Origin: Klebsiella michiganensis
GTDB taxonomy: Bacteria > Pseudomonadota > Gammaproteobacteria > Enterobacterales > Enterobacteriaceae
Direction of reading: 5' to 3'
NCBI RefSeq assembly: GCF_002925905.1
Contig: NZ_PRDB01000004.1
Location: 372,001-436,000, forward strand
Length of the DNA stretch: 64,000 bases
Of this stretch, positions 1,830-8,180 are shown piece after piece. Both the position numbers and the translations under genes were made by a program. Every line of letters starts with the position of its first letter. The stretch's first letter is position 1. Below the pieces are notes generated by a model. That model worked only from the letters and a program-made list of their open reading frames with translations. It ran no database searches and had not been told where the DNA came from.

Positions 1830-3734
1830 ATGATTGTTTTCTCCTCCTTACAAATTCGTCGCGGCGTACGCGTCCTGCTGGACAACGCTACCGCCACCAT
1901 CAACCCAGGGCAAAAAGTCGGCCTGGTGGGTAAAAACGGCTGCGGTAAATCCACGCTGCTTTCGCTTTTGAAAAACGAGATTAGCGCCGACGGCGGCTCA
2001 ATGACCTTCCCCGGCAGCTGGCAGCTGGCCTGGGTTAATCAGGAAACGCCTGCGCTTGCGCAGCCGGCTATTGACTATGTTATTGATGGCGATCGCGAAT
2101 TCCGCAAGCTGGAGGCGGACCTGCACGAAGCCAACGAACGTAATGACGGCCATGCCATCGCGACGGTCCACGGTAAGCTGGACGCCATCGACGCCTGGAC
2201 CATCCGCTCGCGTGCGGCCAGCCTGCTCCACGGGCTCGGTTTCAGCAACGAACAGCTTGAAAGACCGGTGAGCGACTTTTCCGGCGGCTGGCGTATGCGT
2301 CTCAACCTCGCGCAGGCGCTGATTTGCCGTTCCGATCTGCTGCTGCTTGATGAACCGACGAACCACCTCGATCTCGACGCGGTCATCTGGCTGGAGAAGT
2401 GGCTCAAAGGCTACCCGGGGACCCTGATACTGATCTCCCATGATCGCGATTTTCTCGATCCGATCGTCGACAAAATTATCCATATCGAACAGCAAACGAT
2501 GTTCGAGTACACCGGCAACTACAGCTCATTTGAAGTGCAGCGCGCGACCCGTCTTGCGCAGCAACAGTCGATGTATGAGAGCCAGCAGCTGCGCGTCGCG
2601 CATTTGCAGAGCTACATCGACCGTTTTCGCGCTAAAGCCACCAAAGCTAAACAGGCGCAAAGCCGTATCAAAATGCTCGAGCGTATGGAGCTCATCGCCC
2701 CTGCCCACGTTGATAACCCGTTTCACTTTAGCTTCCGCGCGCCGGAAAGCCTGCCCAATCCCCTATTGAAAATGGAAAAGGTCAGCGCCGGTTATGGCGA
2801 GCGCGTGATTCTCGACTCAATCAAGCTGAATCTGGTTCCCGGTTCGCGCATCGGTCTGCTGGGGCGTAACGGGGCCGGTAAATCGACGCTGATTAAACTG
2901 CTGGCCGGCGAGCTACAGCCGCTGCAGGGTGAAATTGGTCTGGCGAAAGGCATCAAGCTTGGCTACTTTGCCCAGCATCAGCTGGAGTTCCTGCGCGCCG
3001 ACGAATCCCCGCTGCAGCATCTTGCCCGTATTGCGCCGCAGGAGCTGGAGCAGAAGCTGCGCGACTATCTGGGCGGTTTCGGCTTCCAGAGCGATAAAGT
3101 CAACGAAGAGACAAAGCGTTTCTCCGGCGGCGAGAAAGCGCGCCTGGTGCTGGCGTTAATCGTCTGGCAGCGGCCTAACCTGCTGCTGCTTGATGAACCC
3201 ACCAACCACCTCGATCTCGATATGCGCCAGGCGCTAACCGAAGCGCTCATTGATTTTGAAGGCGCGCTGGTGGTGGTTTCGCACGACCGTCATCTGATTC
3301 GCTCCACCACCGATGACCTTTATCTGGTGCACGACAGCAAAGTCGAACCTTTCGATGGCGATCTTGAAGACTATCAGCAGTGGCTGAGCGACTCGCAAAA
3401 GCAGGAAAGCCAGACATCGGAAGAGCCAAAGGAAAACGGCAACAGCGCCCAGGCGCGTAAAGATCAGAAACGCCGGGAAGCCGAACTGCGTACGCTGACC
3501 CAGCCGCTGCGCAAAGAGATCGCCCGACTGGAAAAAGAGATGGAGAAGTTCAACGCGCAGCTGGCGCAGGCGGAAGAGAAGCTGGGCGACAGCGAATTGT
3601 ACGATCAAAGCCGCAAAGCCGAGCTCACTGCGTGTCTACAGCAGCAGGCCAGCGCGAAGTCCGGGCTGGAAGAGTGTGAAATGGCCTGGCTGGATGCCCA
3701 GGAGCAGCTGGAGCAGATGCTGCAGGAAGGCTAG
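1830..3734 (+). CDS. yheS: ABC-F family ATPase YheS
   Basis: This 634-residue cytoplasmic protein has two ABC ATPase cassettes and no membrane segments, the layout of ABC-F translation factors. The first Walker A (GKNGCGKST) is at about residues 34-42 and the second (GRNGAGKST) at about 345. Each cassette has an SGG signature (FSGGWRMRL, FSGGEKARL) and a Walker B ending LLLDEPTNHLDLD. Between them is the basic, Arg/Lys-rich linker typical of the family, and the C-terminal 100 residues are a charged coiled coil. ABC-F proteins bind the ribosomal E site, but the exact role of YheS is less well defined. The length matches E. coli YheS (637). A terminator follows at 3754-3777. In E. coli yheT comes next; here a three-gene NAD module intervenes. 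Confidence 0.95.
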   Translation: MIVFSSLQIRRGVRVLLDNATATINPGQKVGLVGKNGCGKSTLLSLLKNEISADGGSMTFPGSWQLAWVNQETPALAQPAIDYVIDGDREFRKLEADLHEANERNDGHAIATVHGKLDAIDAWTIRSRAASLLHGLGFSNEQLERPVSDFSGGWRMRLNLAQALICRSDLLLLDEPTNHLDLDAVIWLEKWLKGYPGTLILISHDRDFLDPIVDKIIHIEQQTMFEYTGNYSSFEVQRATRLAQQQSMYESQQLRVAHLQSYIDRFRAKATKAKQAQSRIKMLERMELIAPAHVDNPFHFSFRAPESLPNPLLKMEKVSAGYGERVILDSIKLNLVPGSRIGLLGRNGAGKSTLIKLLAGELQPLQGEIGLAKGIKLGYFAQHQLEFLRADESPLQHLARIAPQELEQKLRDYLGGFGFQSDKVNEETKRFSGGEKARLVLALIVWQRPNLLLLDEPTNHLDLDMRQALTEALIDFEGALVVVSHDRHLIRSTTDDLYLVHDSKVEPFDGDLEDYQQWLSDSQKQESQTSEEPKENGNSAQARKDQKRREAELRTLTQPLRKEIARLEKEMEKFNAQLAQAEEKLGDSELYDQSRKAELTACLQQQASAKSGLEECEMAWLDAQEQLEQMLQEG

Positions 3735-3795: not shown

Positions 3796-5289
3796 TTAGC
3801 GCTGCGCCGCCAGCCGGGCGCGGATCTGCGACAGCGAGACATAGCCGTACAGCTTGCCATCCAGAAAGCGCGTTTTTAACTCACCCTGCTGCTCCTGTTC
3901 CAGCGTTTGCCCATCGTACAGCTGCAGTTCCCCCAAGGCGTCGCGTTCCACGCGCAGCAGACCACGCGCCGAACGTTTAAGACCATTATCGGTTTTCGGC
4001 TCCTTAAAGAGGGCTCTTCCCTCGCCGTTCACCTCCCCCCAGGTTGCCTTCATCGCGAAGCCGAAGGTATCGCGGGTGTTGTACTGGTAGGTAAATGAAC
4101 CCACGCCGAACACCACGTTAGCGCTGGCAAAACCTTTCGCTTCCAGGCGACGCAGGATCTCATCCGCTCTGGCGAGAGTAATGGAATCGCCGTAAATCAG
4201 GCCGACATGCGGATCCAGCACCTTGTATCCTTTTTCGTTGATAGTACCGCCAAAAATTTCCCACAGAACCTCCACGGAGCCTTTCTCCTCGGCGCTGCGC
4301 TCGCTGCGGGTGTCGTCGTCAGCTGCGGTTCCGCACAGAATCGCCACCGGATCGCCGCTGTCCGGACGGAATACCACGCGCCCCTGACGCTGCATAATTA
4401 TTGCCTGCAGCTCGCGGGTGTATTCGGTCAGCACCTGCCAGTAGTCCCAGGTATCCGAGACGATAGAGACGAAACCCTGCGGGTGGACTTCGGTAATCAG
4501 CCGGCGAAAGGTTTCAATTTCCCGCTCGCGCTCGCCCATACACATCACGCTGTGTTCCGTAGCCGGAATGCTGGCACCGATGAGCTCATCTTCACCGCGA
4601 GTGTAATAATCACGGGCATACAGCAGCGAAGGCAGGCTATCGGTCCCTTTGAAGCTGGCCAGATGTCCGCAGCCCGACTGCGCAGTGTCGTGCAGTCCGG
4701 ACATCCCCCGAAACGAAAAGTCGTGACATTGGAAATCAAGGTGCGTCAGATCGCTACAGGTTTTCTCCGCCCAGCGTTCGCAAATCAGGCGATAGTGGTG
4801 GGCGATGGTCGCGTTGGTTGACGCTTTCCACAGCTCCGCCGAAAGCACCGTCTCCAGATAGTTCACCAGCCAGAAGAACTCAGGTTGCGTATTGGTGATG
4901 GTCAGCACCGGTACTTTCATCGGCACCTTGGTGCCTTCATCCAGCGCTTTGATATGCAGCGGTAAATAGCCAAGCCGATGCAGAGCGCGAATAGGCTCCA
5001 CCCCAACCGTATCGCGCCCCAGATAGCCGTCCATCACCTGCTTATACTCGTTCACGACCTCCTCTTCCGGGCGGGCGAAAAACGCCTCGTTAAACAGATC
5101 GACCAGGAACCACTGCAGAAAGCCCTGCAGGCCGAAAAACACCAGCTTGCCATCGGCCTGCGGCGACTGGAAAAAACGATCGCTGCGCGGGGTAAAGTTA
5201 GAGTAAACCTTCGTTGTCCCCTGCGGATACTGCACGCGATGGGAAACTTTATAACCATCAATGGCCAGAATCGGATTTATTTTCATCAT
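3796..5289 (-). CDS. nadV: Nicotinamide phosphoribosyltransferase NadV (NAMPT family)
   Basis: This protein of about 497 residues belongs to the nicotinate/nicotinamide phosphoribosyltransferase family and resembles NAMPT/NadV rather than PncB. Family landmarks are all present: SFKGTDS, where the Asp contacts the nicotinamide; IPATEHSVM, with the phospho-accepting His; VVFRPDSGDPV; and YGDSITL. The enzyme makes NMN from nicotinamide and PRPP, bypassing deamidation to nicotinate. The start is placed at the ATG at 5289, two bases past the stop of the upstream gene, because GGGG lies five bases before it; a second ATG at 5286 is equally possible. The neighbour upstream encodes a PRPP synthetase homologue, the source of the second substrate. 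Expression is probably controlled from the twin operators at 6182-6222. The protein is not part of the conserved enteric backbone. Confidence 0.9.
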   Translation of the reverse strand: MMKINPILAIDGYKVSHRVQYPQGTTKVYSNFTPRSDRFFQSPQADGKLVFFGLQGFLQWFLVDLFNEAFFARPEEEVVNEYKQVMDGYLGRDTVGVEPIRALHRLGYLPLHIKALDEGTKVPMKVPVLTITNTQPEFFWLVNYLETVLSAELWKASTNATIAHHYRLICERWAEKTCSDLTHLDFQCHDFSFRGMSGLHDTAQSGCGHLASFKGTDSLPSLLYARDYYTRGEDELIGASIPATEHSVMCMGEREREIETFRRLITEVHPQGFVSIVSDTWDYWQVLTEYTRELQAIIMQRQGRVVFRPDSGDPVAILCGTAADDDTRSERSAEEKGSVEVLWEIFGGTINEKGYKVLDPHVGLIYGDSITLARADEILRRLEAKGFASANVVFGVGSFTYQYNTRDTFGFAMKATWGEVNGEGRALFKEPKTDNGLKRSARGLLRVERDALGELQLYDGQTLEQEQQGELKTRFLDGKLYGYVSLSQIRARLAAQR

Positions 5290-5290
5290 G

Positions 5291-6160
5291 TTATCCCCAA
5301 TGTGCGCGGTAGATGGCGTCAATATCGATAAGCTCCAGCTGCGGATGAGCCAGGGCAGGAGAAGTCAAAGAGGTGGTGGCGTAAACGGCATCGATGCCGT
5401 TATTCAACAGATGCTCTACGCCTTTGGAAAAAATACCGTGGGTGACGTACAGACTCACGCTGCGGGCGCCCGCCTCGCGCAGCACCTGCGCCGAGCCGAT
5501 AAAGGTGCCGCCAGCGTCGCAGAGGTCGTCAACAATAAGCACCGCTTTCCCCGCGACATTACCGGCCAGCAGGGAAAAACCGGTTAACGCGCCGCTGGCA
5601 AGATCACGCTCTTTACCGAGGATCGCGAACTCTCCGGCACCGCAGGCTTTAGCCACAGGATGAATCTTCTTTAGCGCGCCGGCATCCGGCGCCACCAGCA
5701 TCAGCTCCCCGGCAGCAATAGCCTGACGCAGACCGGCGCTCTGCAGAAGACAGTGCTGTTGAGCCACCGCGACCATATTATTGACTGCCGCCGCTGCGGC
5801 ATCGCTGTGCGGGTCAAGCACCACGACTTTGTCAAAGCCAAGGGTATTAAGCTGCCGGGCAAAGACCTTCAGCGCGAAGCTGTCTCCCGGCACCATATGA
5901 CGATCCTGACGCGCCCACGGCAGCCACGGCAGTTCCAGATGGCTAAACGTCACGTCGGTAACATGACGCACGGCCTCCACCAGCTGCGCCAGCAGCATAA
6001 AATCGTTCATGTCGCGCAGAGCAACCGCCCGGATGCGCATCAGACGGGCGGAAGGCGGTAGTGGATCGGTCACCTTCAGCCACACAGCGCCATCGGGAAA
6101 GACGCCGCTGGCAAGCGTAAACGCCTCATCATCCAGTTCCAGGGTAAATTTTTCGCTCAT
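5291..6160 (-). CDS. Ribose-phosphate pyrophosphokinase paralogue (PRPP synthetase-like)
   Basis: This 289-residue protein is shorter than the housekeeping Prs (about 315) but keeps its key motifs: PWARQDR at about residue 80 (PYARQDR in Prs), VVLDPHSD for the ribose-phosphate/ATP site, LGKERD with the catalytic Lys-x-Arg, and the PRPP loop VLIVDDLCDAGGTF. It should form PRPP from ribose 5-phosphate and ATP. The gene lies directly upstream of nadV with one base between stop and start. This suggests co-translation and a dedicated PRPP supply for nicotinamide salvage; that job is inferred from context. The N-terminus lacks the usual Prs opening, so allosteric control by ADP/phosphate may be reduced. 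Two NrtR-like palindromes lie 22-62 bases upstream of its ATG. Confidence 0.87.
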   Translation of the reverse strand: MSEKFTLELDDEAFTLASGVFPDGAVWLKVTDPLPPSARLMRIRAVALRDMNDFMLLAQLVEAVRHVTDVTFSHLELPWLPWARQDRHMVPGDSFALKVFARQLNTLGFDKVVVLDPHSDAAAAAVNNMVAVAQQHCLLQSAGLRQAIAAGELMLVAPDAGALKKIHPVAKACGAGEFAILGKERDLASGALTGFSLLAGNVAGKAVLIVDDLCDAGGTFIGSAQVLREAGARSVSLYVTHGIFSKGVEHLLNNGIDAVYATTSLTSPALAHPQLELIDIDAIYRAHWG

Positions 6161-6181
6161 GATGACCTCCGCTCATTAAAT

Positions 6182-6198
6182 TGTGTCCCTAAGACACA
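6182..6198. promoter_or_regulatory. nrtR: NrtR-like operator 1 (palindrome)
   Basis: The sequence TGTGTCCCTAAGACACA is a palindrome of TGTGTC and GACACA around CCTAA. It lies in the 196-base gap between the divergent PRPP-synthetase/nadV pair and nrtR, and an almost identical second copy starts 23 bases further on. Sites with TGTC/GACA-type arms are known for NrtR regulators of NAD genes. The assignment to this NrtR is inferred from position and symmetry. Confidence 0.75.
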
Positions 6199-6205
6199 AT
6201 CAATA

Positions 6206-6222
6206 ATGTCCCTAAGACACAT
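6206..6222. promoter_or_regulatory. nrtR: NrtR-like operator 2 (palindrome)
   Basis: The second copy, ATGTCCCTAAGACACAT, shares 15 consecutive bases with operator 1 (TGTCCCTAAGACACA). The centre-to-centre distance is 23 bases, about two helical turns, so two dimers could bind the same face of the DNA. Such a pair would control both divergent units. Confidence 0.75.
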
Positions 6223-6356
6223 ACTCTGCAAGCGTTAAATGTCATTTAAGCGGAGATGTTAATTAAGCAGTTGAAAAACAATAATAAAAATGTAGGCTTG
6301 CTGCTCAGGAAGGGGCTGGTACACTTGTCAGCGTTCTTTTCCGCTGCGAGCGCTCT

Positions 6357-7076
6357 ATGACCAACGATGCCGAATACCTCAGCCAATACGATGCCAGCCG
6401 CTTTCCCTCGCCGCTGGTGACCGTCGATAGCGTCCTGTTTACCCTGCATGAAGGGGCGCTGTGCGTTCTGCTGGTTGAGCGCGCTAATCCACCGCAACAG
6501 GGGGCGTGGGGGCTACCCGGCGGCTTTATCGATCTGGCGCACGATGATTCAACCCGCGCCACGGCGCTACGTAAGCTCACGGAAAAAACCGGGATTTCAC
6601 CGTCATGGCTGGAGCAGCTCGACACCTTCTCCGGGCCGGATCGCGATCCGCGCGGCTGGAGCCTGACTATCGCCTGGTTTGCGTTAATCTCGTGGGTAGA
6701 GTGTCAGCCGCATATCGCCAGCGTCAGCGATGCCCGCTGGGTGCCGGTGGCGCAGCTGGATTGCTATTCGCTGGCTTTCGATCATCAAAAGATTATCGAC
6801 GCCGGTCTGCATCGCTTACGCCAAAAAACGATGTACTCTTTACTGCCGGTTTACTGTCTGCCGGAGACCTTTACCCATGGTCAGCTGCTGGAAGCCACGG
6901 AAATCATCCTTGGTCAGCCGATTCAACGCAAAAGCCTGATTCGCCGCTTCGAAGCCTCCGGAATGTTTGAAGAGACCGGTGAAACAGCGGCAACCGGCGC
7001 GCGGAAAGCGCGGCTATGGCGGCGTAAACCCGGCGTCGATTTTCATCTCTTTTCACGTAACCTGCTGACCGATTAG
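6357..7076 (+). CDS. nrtR: NrtR-type Nudix-related transcriptional regulator of NAD metabolism
   Basis: This 239-residue protein has an N-terminal Nudix-like domain (about residues 18-145) and a C-terminal winged-helix segment, the architecture of NrtR. The Nudix region reads GAWGLPGGFIDLAHDD and then RKLTEKTG. The catalytic REUXEEXG signature is changed at both metal-binding positions (RKLTEK instead of RExxEE), as expected for a domain that senses an ADP-ribose-type ligand and no longer hydrolyses it. NrtR proteins repress NAD biosynthesis or salvage genes. Here the gene is divergent from the nadV pair, with a double palindrome in between, so it probably represses them and itself. The start at 6357 follows a poor ribosome site (GAGCGCTCT), but no better one is seen. 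Confidence 0.85.
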   Translation: MTNDAEYLSQYDASRFPSPLVTVDSVLFTLHEGALCVLLVERANPPQQGAWGLPGGFIDLAHDDSTRATALRKLTEKTGISPSWLEQLDTFSGPDRDPRGWSLTIAWFALISWVECQPHIASVSDARWVPVAQLDCYSLAFDHQKIIDAGLHRLRQKTMYSLLPVYCLPETFTHGQLLEATEIILGQPIQRKSLIRRFEASGMFEETGETAATGARKARLWRRKPGVDFHLFSRNLLTD

Positions 7077-7157: not shown

Positions 7158-8180
7158 ATGGTTGATATCACTCCTACAGAAATGACGCCCCCTGAAGACG
7201 ACTCGCAGCAGTTTCATCCGATGCGCGGCGTAGGCAATCGTCATTTGCAAACCATGTTGCCGCGGCTAATCCGTCGCAAACTCCGCTTTACTCCCCACTG
7301 GCAGCGTCTGGAATTGCCAGACGGCGATTTTGTCGATCTGGCATGGAGTGAAGACCCTTCTCAGGCGCGCCATAAACCTCGTCTGGTGGTATTTCATGGC
7401 CTAGAGGGGAGCCTACACAGCCCTTACGCACACGGACTTATCCATGCGGCAATGCAGCGCGGCTGGCTGGGCGTGGTGATGCACTTTCGCGGCTGTAGCG
7501 GCGAACCCAACCGGAATAACCGCATCTACCACTCGGGCGAAACGGAAGACGGCTCCTGGTTTCTGCGCTGGCTCCAGCGCGAGTACGGCACGGTTCCCAC
7601 CGCCGCGGTGGGATATTCGCTCGGGGGCAATATGCTGGGCTGCCTGCTGGCAAAAGAAGGCGACGCTATCCCCGTTGATGCCGCGGTTATCGTCTCGGCG
7701 CCGTTTATGCTGGAAGCCTGTAGCTATCATATGGACAAAGGTTTCTCCCGCGTTTATCAGCGCTATCTGCTCAACCTGCTGAAAGCCAACGCCGCGCGTA
7801 AGCTAAAAGCCTATCCCGGCTCTCTGCCCGTCGATTTACGCCAGCTAAAAAGCATGCGCCGTATCCGCGAGTTTGACGATTGCATTACGGCCAGGATCCA
7901 CGGTTTTGCCGATGCGCTGGACTACTATCGCCAGTGTAGCGCCATGCCGCGCCTGAGCGATATCACTAAGCCCACGCTGATTATTCACGCGAAGGACGAT
8001 CCCTTTATGGATCACCACTCGATTCCCCCGCAGGAGCAGCTGCCGGCGAATGTCGAATATCAGCTCACGGAGCACGGCGGGCACGTTGGCTTCGTCGGCG
8101 GCACGCTGCGTAAGCCTGAAATGTGGCTTGAAAAACGCATCCCGGATTGGCTAACCCGTTGGCTAGGAGCGCAAATATGA
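7158..8180 (+). CDS. yheT: Predicted alpha/beta hydrolase YheT
   Basis: This 340-residue protein matches E. coli YheT in length and opening (PMRG then HLQTMLPRL). It has an alpha/beta hydrolase fold: VVFHGLEGS forms the oxyanion-hole region, GYSLGGNM is the nucleophile elbow with the catalytic Ser at about residue 155, and the late [10 protein letters not shown] and TEHGGHVGF hold the acid and His of the triad. It belongs to the ABHD1/YheT esterase group, and the natural substrate is not known. There is no recognisable ribosome site before the ATG. The stop overlaps the yheU start as ATGA, so the two genes are translationally coupled. No signal peptide is present. Confidence 0.93.

Follow-up and report, generated by a model that had tools for sequence, protein, structure and literature searches.

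A probable chromosomal NARP1-type NAD+ reconstitution operon with its own NrtR-family repressor in Klebsiella michiganensis

Pairs of adps and namat genes, known as NARP1, are the closest described relatives of the gene module treated here. Chromosomal NARP1 has already been published (Lan et al., PMC12774641; Tesson et al. as cited there); that of Paenibacillus foliorum is a bacterial adps-namat pair demonstrated biochemically. The study that demonstrated it leaves open what chromosomal NARP1 contributes to bacteria, and its main text mentions neither NrtR nor Nudix, Klebsiella or Enterobact- (PMC12774641). The NrsAB pair of phage ICP1 has also been proposed to consist of Adps and Namat homologues acting against NAD+ depletion, a phage-borne case likened here from its description (PMC11559045). 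The window analysed here, a stretch of 64,000 nucleotides of Klebsiella michiganensis (NZ_PRDB01000004.1, positions 372,001 to 436,000), carries between yheS and yheT a module of three genes, namely a namat-like gene usually named nadV, an adps-like paralogue of the phosphoribosyl pyrophosphate (PRPP) synthetase gene prs, and a divergent nrtR. Judged from its sequence, this module is likely to be a chromosomal NARP1-type NAD+ reconstitution operon under an ADP-ribose-sensing repressor, with formation of nicotinamide mononucleotide (NMN) as a likely second activity of its Namat-like enzyme.

Like the NARP1 of phage SPbetaL1, the module shows the order adps-namat, and its Namat-like protein is 53.6% identical to the phage Namat; unlike it, the module is chromosomal, has its own NrtR and tandem putative operators, encodes an Adps-like protein only distantly similar to the phage one, and is known here from sequence. 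Namat has been set apart from NAMPT by an adenine clamp, in which a helix of signature GSX-phi-X-phi-X-phi-TRD is combined with a stacking loop residue (PMC12774641). The helix GSFTYQYNTRD of the window protein fits this signature exactly, with aromatics at positions 3 and 7, and its Arg38 aligns with the stacking Arg40 of SPbetaL1 Namat. When the published list of NAD+-contact residues (PMC12774641) was aligned, the window protein was identical to SPbetaL1 Namat at 19 of 20 positions, clamp included, as compared to 18-19 in three Bacteroidota relatives, 15-16 in the NadV of Haemophilus ducreyi and three of its relatives from one family, and 13 in three canonical-type NadV proteins (L132, L133 and L139). 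The clamp aromatics are kept in all 39 enteric orthologues (loci L033-L071); the stacking residue, for which the criterion was Arg, or Lys/Tyr plus the next residue, is Arg in 37 of these loci and His in L059 and L060.

The best solved matches of the window protein are 9w5w/9w5x (567 bits), followed by 9ke8 (454 bits) and human NAMPT (218 bits); since the aligned sequence of 9w5w/9w5x agrees with the phage gene, these entries are identified as SPbetaL1 Namat. Overall similarity was rejected as a proof of function, because the H. ducreyi NadV encoded on pNAD1 is closer to SPbetaL1 Namat (56.5% identity) than the window protein is, though it is without the clamp. This plasmid NadV belongs to the same superfamily, is 47.4% identical to the window protein and keeps the nicotinamide-binding residues, but its clamp aromatics are replaced (F392Q and Y396R in SPbetaL1 numbering) and no prs gene is present on the plasmid. 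Canonical NAMPT (human, Xanthomonas) shares the nicotinamide pocket and the catalytic core with the window protein, whereas the adenine clamp of the latter is absent from it (PMC12774641); canonical-type bacterial members are 36-37% identical to the window protein. Seven order-level nadV copies (L125-L131) gave a two-piece match with a gap near residues 323-332, in frames of 530-597 amino acids that keep the clamp.

The clamp goes together with the partner gene. Among 274 bacterial and viral NadV-type loci, which had been selected for similarity to two query sequences and through earlier hits and many of which also went into the Adps profile, an Adps-type gene was found in 164 of 178 clamp-bearing loci and in none of the 96 clamp-less ones. 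In a tree of 81 of these loci (viral ones mostly random draws), from which the clamp columns had been removed, a single change of the clamp is seen (Shimodaira-Hasegawa-like approximate likelihood ratio test, SH-aLRT, 82), so that the association is essentially one evolutionary contrast. The enteric proteins and one order-level copy (L124) lie inside the clamp clade among phage Namats, which bears out the kinship with phage pairs remarked upon in the first-pass annotation. Their neighbours are the Namats of Cronobacter phage A24, Salmonella phage 7-11 and Shigella phage Sf14 (SH-aLRT 98, with a long-branch warning); Sf14 and Bas63 belong to the same subfamily, Ounavirinae, and the Namat of Bas63 has been modelled by Lan et al. 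(PMC12774641). Among the best 80 of 501 bacterial relatives, a prs-like gene accompanies nadV in all 80 loci and nrtR in 77.

Fourteen clamp-bearing loci show no Adps-type gene on the DNA available for them; five of them lie on contigs shorter than 5.6 kb and the others have longer DNA. They are 14 of the 80 clamp-bearing viral loci (L238, L244-L247, L256, L258, L260, L261, L274, L276, L277, L279 and L280), and 11 of the 14 have the helix GSFTYQFNTRD in common; their Adps may be encoded elsewhere in the genome or may have been replaced.

The prs-like protein scores 131.9 bits with the broad PRPP-synthetase subfamily model TIGR01251 (cut-off 113) and stays under the cut-off of every other PRPP-synthetase model (equivalogs) listed. 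Its phosphate loop reads DAGGTF, as compared to DTGGTL in nine ordinary Prs proteins (three of them identical) of the same GTDB order, that of the source genome among them (the comparison table omits L170-L204). The loop varies at the same place within the Adps-type group, which has D-G/A, or SF/SY in SPbetaL1 and FADO, as well as other shared differences; that of the proven SPbetaL1 Adps is SSFGGTF. The protein is 37-39% identical to three enterobacterial-phage homologues and 23.6% identical to the ordinary Prs encoded elsewhere in its own genome. Its AlphaFold2 model has a mean predicted local distance difference test score of 89.3 and a predicted template modelling score of 0.86.

The product of nrtR matches PF00293 and PF21906 above their cut-offs, and NCBIfam NF050029 at 219 bits, below the equivalog cut-off of 400 bits. 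Its Nudix box is degenerate, with RKLTEKTG in place of REUxEExG; in the NrtR of Mycobacterium smegmatis the box is likewise degenerate and shows the same E-to-K change (PMC6800001). Two TGTC-N5-GACA palindromes stand directly ahead of the adps start in all 40 enteric regions (the window and L033-L071), spaced by 23 bp in 35 regions, 22 bp in four and 33 bp in one. The tandem arrangement was found in none of 8,000 shuffles, which preserved base composition only and not dinucleotides, and the exact tandem palindrome occurs at one place in the source genome, the present locus. A third site is seen in some loci; among five order-level regions inspected, a palindrome site is present in two and absent from three. 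These palindromes are putative NrtR operators, their binding by NrtR being suggested by position and conservation. The NrtR of Serratia rubidaea (L064) differs at its C-terminus from the FSRNLM-E of its relatives, as if frame-shifted near the end.

The NrtR of M. smegmatis (PMC6800001) and that of Streptococcus sobrinus (PMC12735969) are released from DNA by ADP-ribose, and in Pseudomonas aeruginosa the NAD+-cleaving toxin NatT de-represses NrtR-controlled salvage (PMC11535050). Because NrtR homologues are released by ADP-ribose, the inducer and the substrate of the present module are probably one and the same molecule. The described regulons (nadABC in M. smegmatis; pnuC/pncB in S. sobrinus; pncB, nadD2 and nadE in P. 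aeruginosa) resemble the module in their Nudix-winged helix repressor with a degenerate Nudix box, in a palindromic operator (23 bp in M. smegmatis) and in ADP-ribose as anti-repressor. They differ from it in their operator letters and in that, on the NARP1 interpretation, the enzymes encoded by the present module would use ADP-ribose. The regulated enzymes of those three regulons are not known to do so.

By analogy with these homologues, the following circuit can be proposed. Splitting of NAD+ in the cell, by an enzyme that we presume to provide the ADP-ribose, would raise ADP-ribose and nicotinamide; ADP-ribose would bind NrtR, which would leave both operators and allow Adps and Namat to be made. 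With ATP, Adps would convert ADP-ribose to ADP-ribose pyrophosphate, from which Namat would form NAD+ with nicotinamide, in two steps in all from ADP-ribose. ADP-ribose would thus serve as inducer and substrate, and the loop would shut off as it is consumed. The clamp and the catalytic residues are seen in the sequence itself; both steps, like the ligand of this NrtR, are assigned on the model of homologues.

No coupling of NARP1 to NrtR or to a switch that senses ADP-ribose turned up in the open-access literature searched, and what is new is probably a NARP1 that has an ADP-ribose switch of its own and has been domesticated in enterobacteria. Some NrtR-nadV-prs clusters may already figure in Rodionov (2008). 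For the open question of what chromosomal NARP1 does, a dedicated repressor of the ADP-ribose-sensing family would offer a concrete answer, namely on-demand repair of NAD+ once defence systems, toxins or competitors have cleaved it. A further question is how a cell that rebuilds NAD+ reconciles repair with suicide-type NADase defences, and in many genomes the genes named nadV or 'nicotinate phosphoribosyltransferase' may encode enzymes of another reaction. We put forward, tentatively and at somewhat less than even chances, the wider proposal that an old substrate-switched NAD+ repair circuit is owned by enterobacteria and their relatives, that the phage pathway is a stripped copy of the host one or the reverse, and that many nrtR-adjacent 'nadV-prs' pairs of Bacteroidota and Gammaproteobacteria are misnamed NARP1s. 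No NrtR was seen among the annotated neighbours in three phage loci opened.

The first-pass annotation had read the pair as ordinary nicotinamide salvage, in which the paralogue supplies PRPP and NadV makes NMN; the NMN would then be passed on by NadR or PncC. As the main function this is probably wrong, since the clamp and the partner gene indicate Adps and Namat, and we regard it as unlikely, though it has more in its favour than the other alternatives. The family names of the gene products fit it; Namat does form NMN from PRPP as a side product, at roughly half the rate of the human enzyme (PMC12774641); and the source genome encodes NadR and two CinA/PncC-type proteins, which might use NMN. 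The NAMPT of Chitinophaga pinensis is credited with good NMN production, with a Km of 5,220 umol/L as printed in the table (PMC11681623), and the clamp is present in the Chitinophaga relatives L084 and L088, which are not the C. pinensis sequence itself. In an Acinetobacter locus (L163), a clamp-bearing prs-nadV pair is followed by NadM, an order that suits an NMN route. Salvage would leave unexplained, on the other hand, why the clamp is kept in every enteric orthologue despite its little influence on the PRPP reaction of SPbetaL1 Namat (PMC12774641), why a second synthetase with a changed phosphate loop accompanies an ordinary Prs, and why a clamp-less NadV such as that of pNAD1 does without a prs gene on its plasmid. 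Less probable still is a dual-purpose module that draws on PRPP while the cell grows normally and on ADP-ribose pyrophosphate during NAD+ stress; the in vitro bifunctionality of Namat (PMC12774641) and the control of ordinary NAD genes by NrtR elsewhere speak for it, but ADP-ribose-gated expression would restrict a housekeeping role. That the module is a prophage relic, a recently captured anti-defence gene pair of phage origin, is very improbable in view of the age of the locus. The enterobacterial-phage neighbours in the NadV tree and 1,936 phage records with a NadV-type match speak for capture, though the top record reads as chromosomal; the repressor and operators of the module, yheS next to nadV in most loci, and the broad parallel of module and flank trees (Serratia, Erwinia, Mangrovibacter, Franconibacter, Kosakonia and Citrobacter) speak against it.

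Besides the NMN route and the sampling and single contrast of the 274 loci, several further observations weigh against a NARP1-type operon. The identity of the Adps-like protein to the proven SPbetaL1 Adps is low (29.7%). A K-x-R-D..T-G motif was rejected as an Adps mark, being found also in the PDB PRPP synthetase 4twb, which we take to be an archaeal class III enzyme; the Adps label rests, for this reason, mainly on the partner gene and the phosphate loop. The Prs tree, drawn from 100 of 150 aligned rows and further omitting L002-L032 and most of the Citrobacter rows that are nearly identical, lacks an archaeal outgroup, contains long branches, is poorly resolved and leaves the Adps question unsettled. 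The release of M. smegmatis NrtR is reported at 50 mM ADP-ribose as printed (PMC6800001), and the product of NatT is ADP-ribose-1''-phosphate, not ADP-ribose (PMC11535050). In 20 Klebsiella genomes no link with the module was seen for SIR2_2 (1 of 5 with the module, 8 of 15 without; p 0.32) or RES (2 of 5 with, 8 of 15 without; p 1), and both are absent from the source genome. PADLOC gave weak, short matches only.

The distribution points to an old locus. When 392 genomes of the GTDB family were sampled, NadV matches were obtained in 46, 40 of them (the source genome included) intact with at least 75% identity and four with 36-38%; of the other two, the match in G028 (a 49%-complete assembly) is broken and that in G193 is an 80-residue fragment. 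In the order sample 41 of 394 genomes match, 38 of these below 60% identity. The same three-gene set occurs together in all 39 enterobacterial loci (L033-L071), so the arrangement is not due to chance. The neighbourhood is kept from Citrobacter to Erwinia, with yheS directly after nadV in 27 of 39 loci and yheT on the other side in 36, in agreement with the fixed place in the crp region that had been noted for the module. Two of the remaining 12 loci are cut short and ten have DNA yet no yheS within 8 kb. In all four examined of these ten (L036, L041, L044 and L054, from Kosakonia, Phytobacter, Citrobacter and Intestinirhabdus), nadV is followed from about 9.7 kb by an operon for malonate decarboxylase (mdcA onward), with models run on L044 only; the interval has therefore taken other cargo too.

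Midpoint-rooted module and flank trees (the latter with 40 of 42 module rows) broadly agree, with Serratia and Erwinia outside and with Mangrovibacter, Franconibacter, Kosakonia and Citrobacter each clustering together in both; the discrepancies include Entomohabitans and Superficieibacter. The module stands at the yheS-yheT place in 5 of 20 Klebsiella genomes (six module rows for five genomes, with L035 and L171 from one genome and L033 and L170 from another). Two module-less Klebsiella genomes (G760 and G759), with flanking proteins 97-98% identical, retain the last 27 nucleotides of nrtR; G760 encodes an exact FSRNLLTD-stop, an end conserved across the family, and G759 has two changes. A decayed nrtR tail is seen in G242. 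Of the 15 module-less intervals 11 were compared, and in the remaining eight of these the match starts at or just past the nrtR stop. The three tails are, from their sequence, deletion scars, and a part of the patchiness of the module is hence due to loss. Klebsiella flanks form one clade (100), whereas the modules of this genus split into a lineage that groups with Pluralibacter (98) and another that groups with copies from Citrobacter and Intestinirhabdus (89); a topology with all Klebsiella modules in one clade was rejected (approximately unbiased test, p-AU 0.0076). As Klebsiella carries two module lineages, replacement has also occurred, and the history read from these sequences is that of an old locus with repeated loss and some replacement at the same place. 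The description of the module as an accessory insertion is correct in part only, given the broad agreement of the trees and the scars of loss on the one hand and the replacement on the other. Presence in the ancestor of the whole family, the refuting condition set in the first-pass annotation, is brought nearer but not proven by the 40 intact orthologues.

The positions of the features are collected in Table 1. Gene calling and family models agree with the earlier account of three genes between yheS and yheT: the namat-like product matches NAMPT_N and NAPRTase, as claimed for a NAMPT-superfamily enzyme, the 289-residue paralogue is a second ribose-phosphate diphosphokinase subfamily member beside the ordinary Prs, and the divergent plus-strand gene matches NUDIX and NrtR_WHD. 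The namat-like ATG (5289-5287) lies one base past the prs-like stop TAA (5293-5291).

Table 1. Features of the module and its flanks (positions in the window)
Feature	Positions	Strand	Basis or remark
yheS, left flank	1830-3734	+	gene calling, family models
namat-like gene (nadV of the first-pass annotation; NCBI model PRK09198, nicotinate phosphoribosyltransferase)	3796-5289	-	497 aa
namat-like clamp residues R38, F399, Y403, T405, R406, D407	within 3796-5289 product		alignment
adps-like gene (PRPP-synthetase paralogue)	5291-6160	-	289 aa
divergent promoter region, adps/nrtR gap	6161-6356	.	sequence
putative NrtR operator 1, ATTGTGTCCCTAAGACACAAT	6180-6200	.	palindrome search
putative NrtR operator 2, ATAATGTCCCTAAGACACATA, 23 bp from operator 1	6203-6223	.	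palindrome search
nrtR, Nudix + NrtR winged helix	6357-7076	+	239 aa
last 27 nt of nrtR, retained as scar in two close module-less Klebsiella genomes	7050-7076	+	
yheT, right flank	7158-8180	+	gene calling, family models

In Escherichia coli yheS and yheT are neighbours, as had been stated, with an overlap of one base in the record opened. The module DNA gave no blastn match in a collection of 5,426 E. coli genomes, of which 5,375 are matched by the yheT-prkB DNA. An Rfam scan of the window at gathering scores gave no match. All 52 plasmid records with a match are below 60% identity, so no recent plasmid source is seen. The record of L163 (CAKLQF020000015.1, labelled Acinetobacter phage MD-2021a) reads like a contig of a bacterial chromosome, with an AraC regulator, TauE and methionine synthesis. 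In one Klebsiella genome (L179, G369), 1,035-residue transporter-like and TetR-like frames, recognized by eye, replace the module in a yheT-yheS interval of about 5 kb (about 3.0-8.0 kb). The source genome measures 6.19 Mb, and its window is 95.95% identical to Klebsiella grimontii 06D021 (L033) over 13,292 bp.

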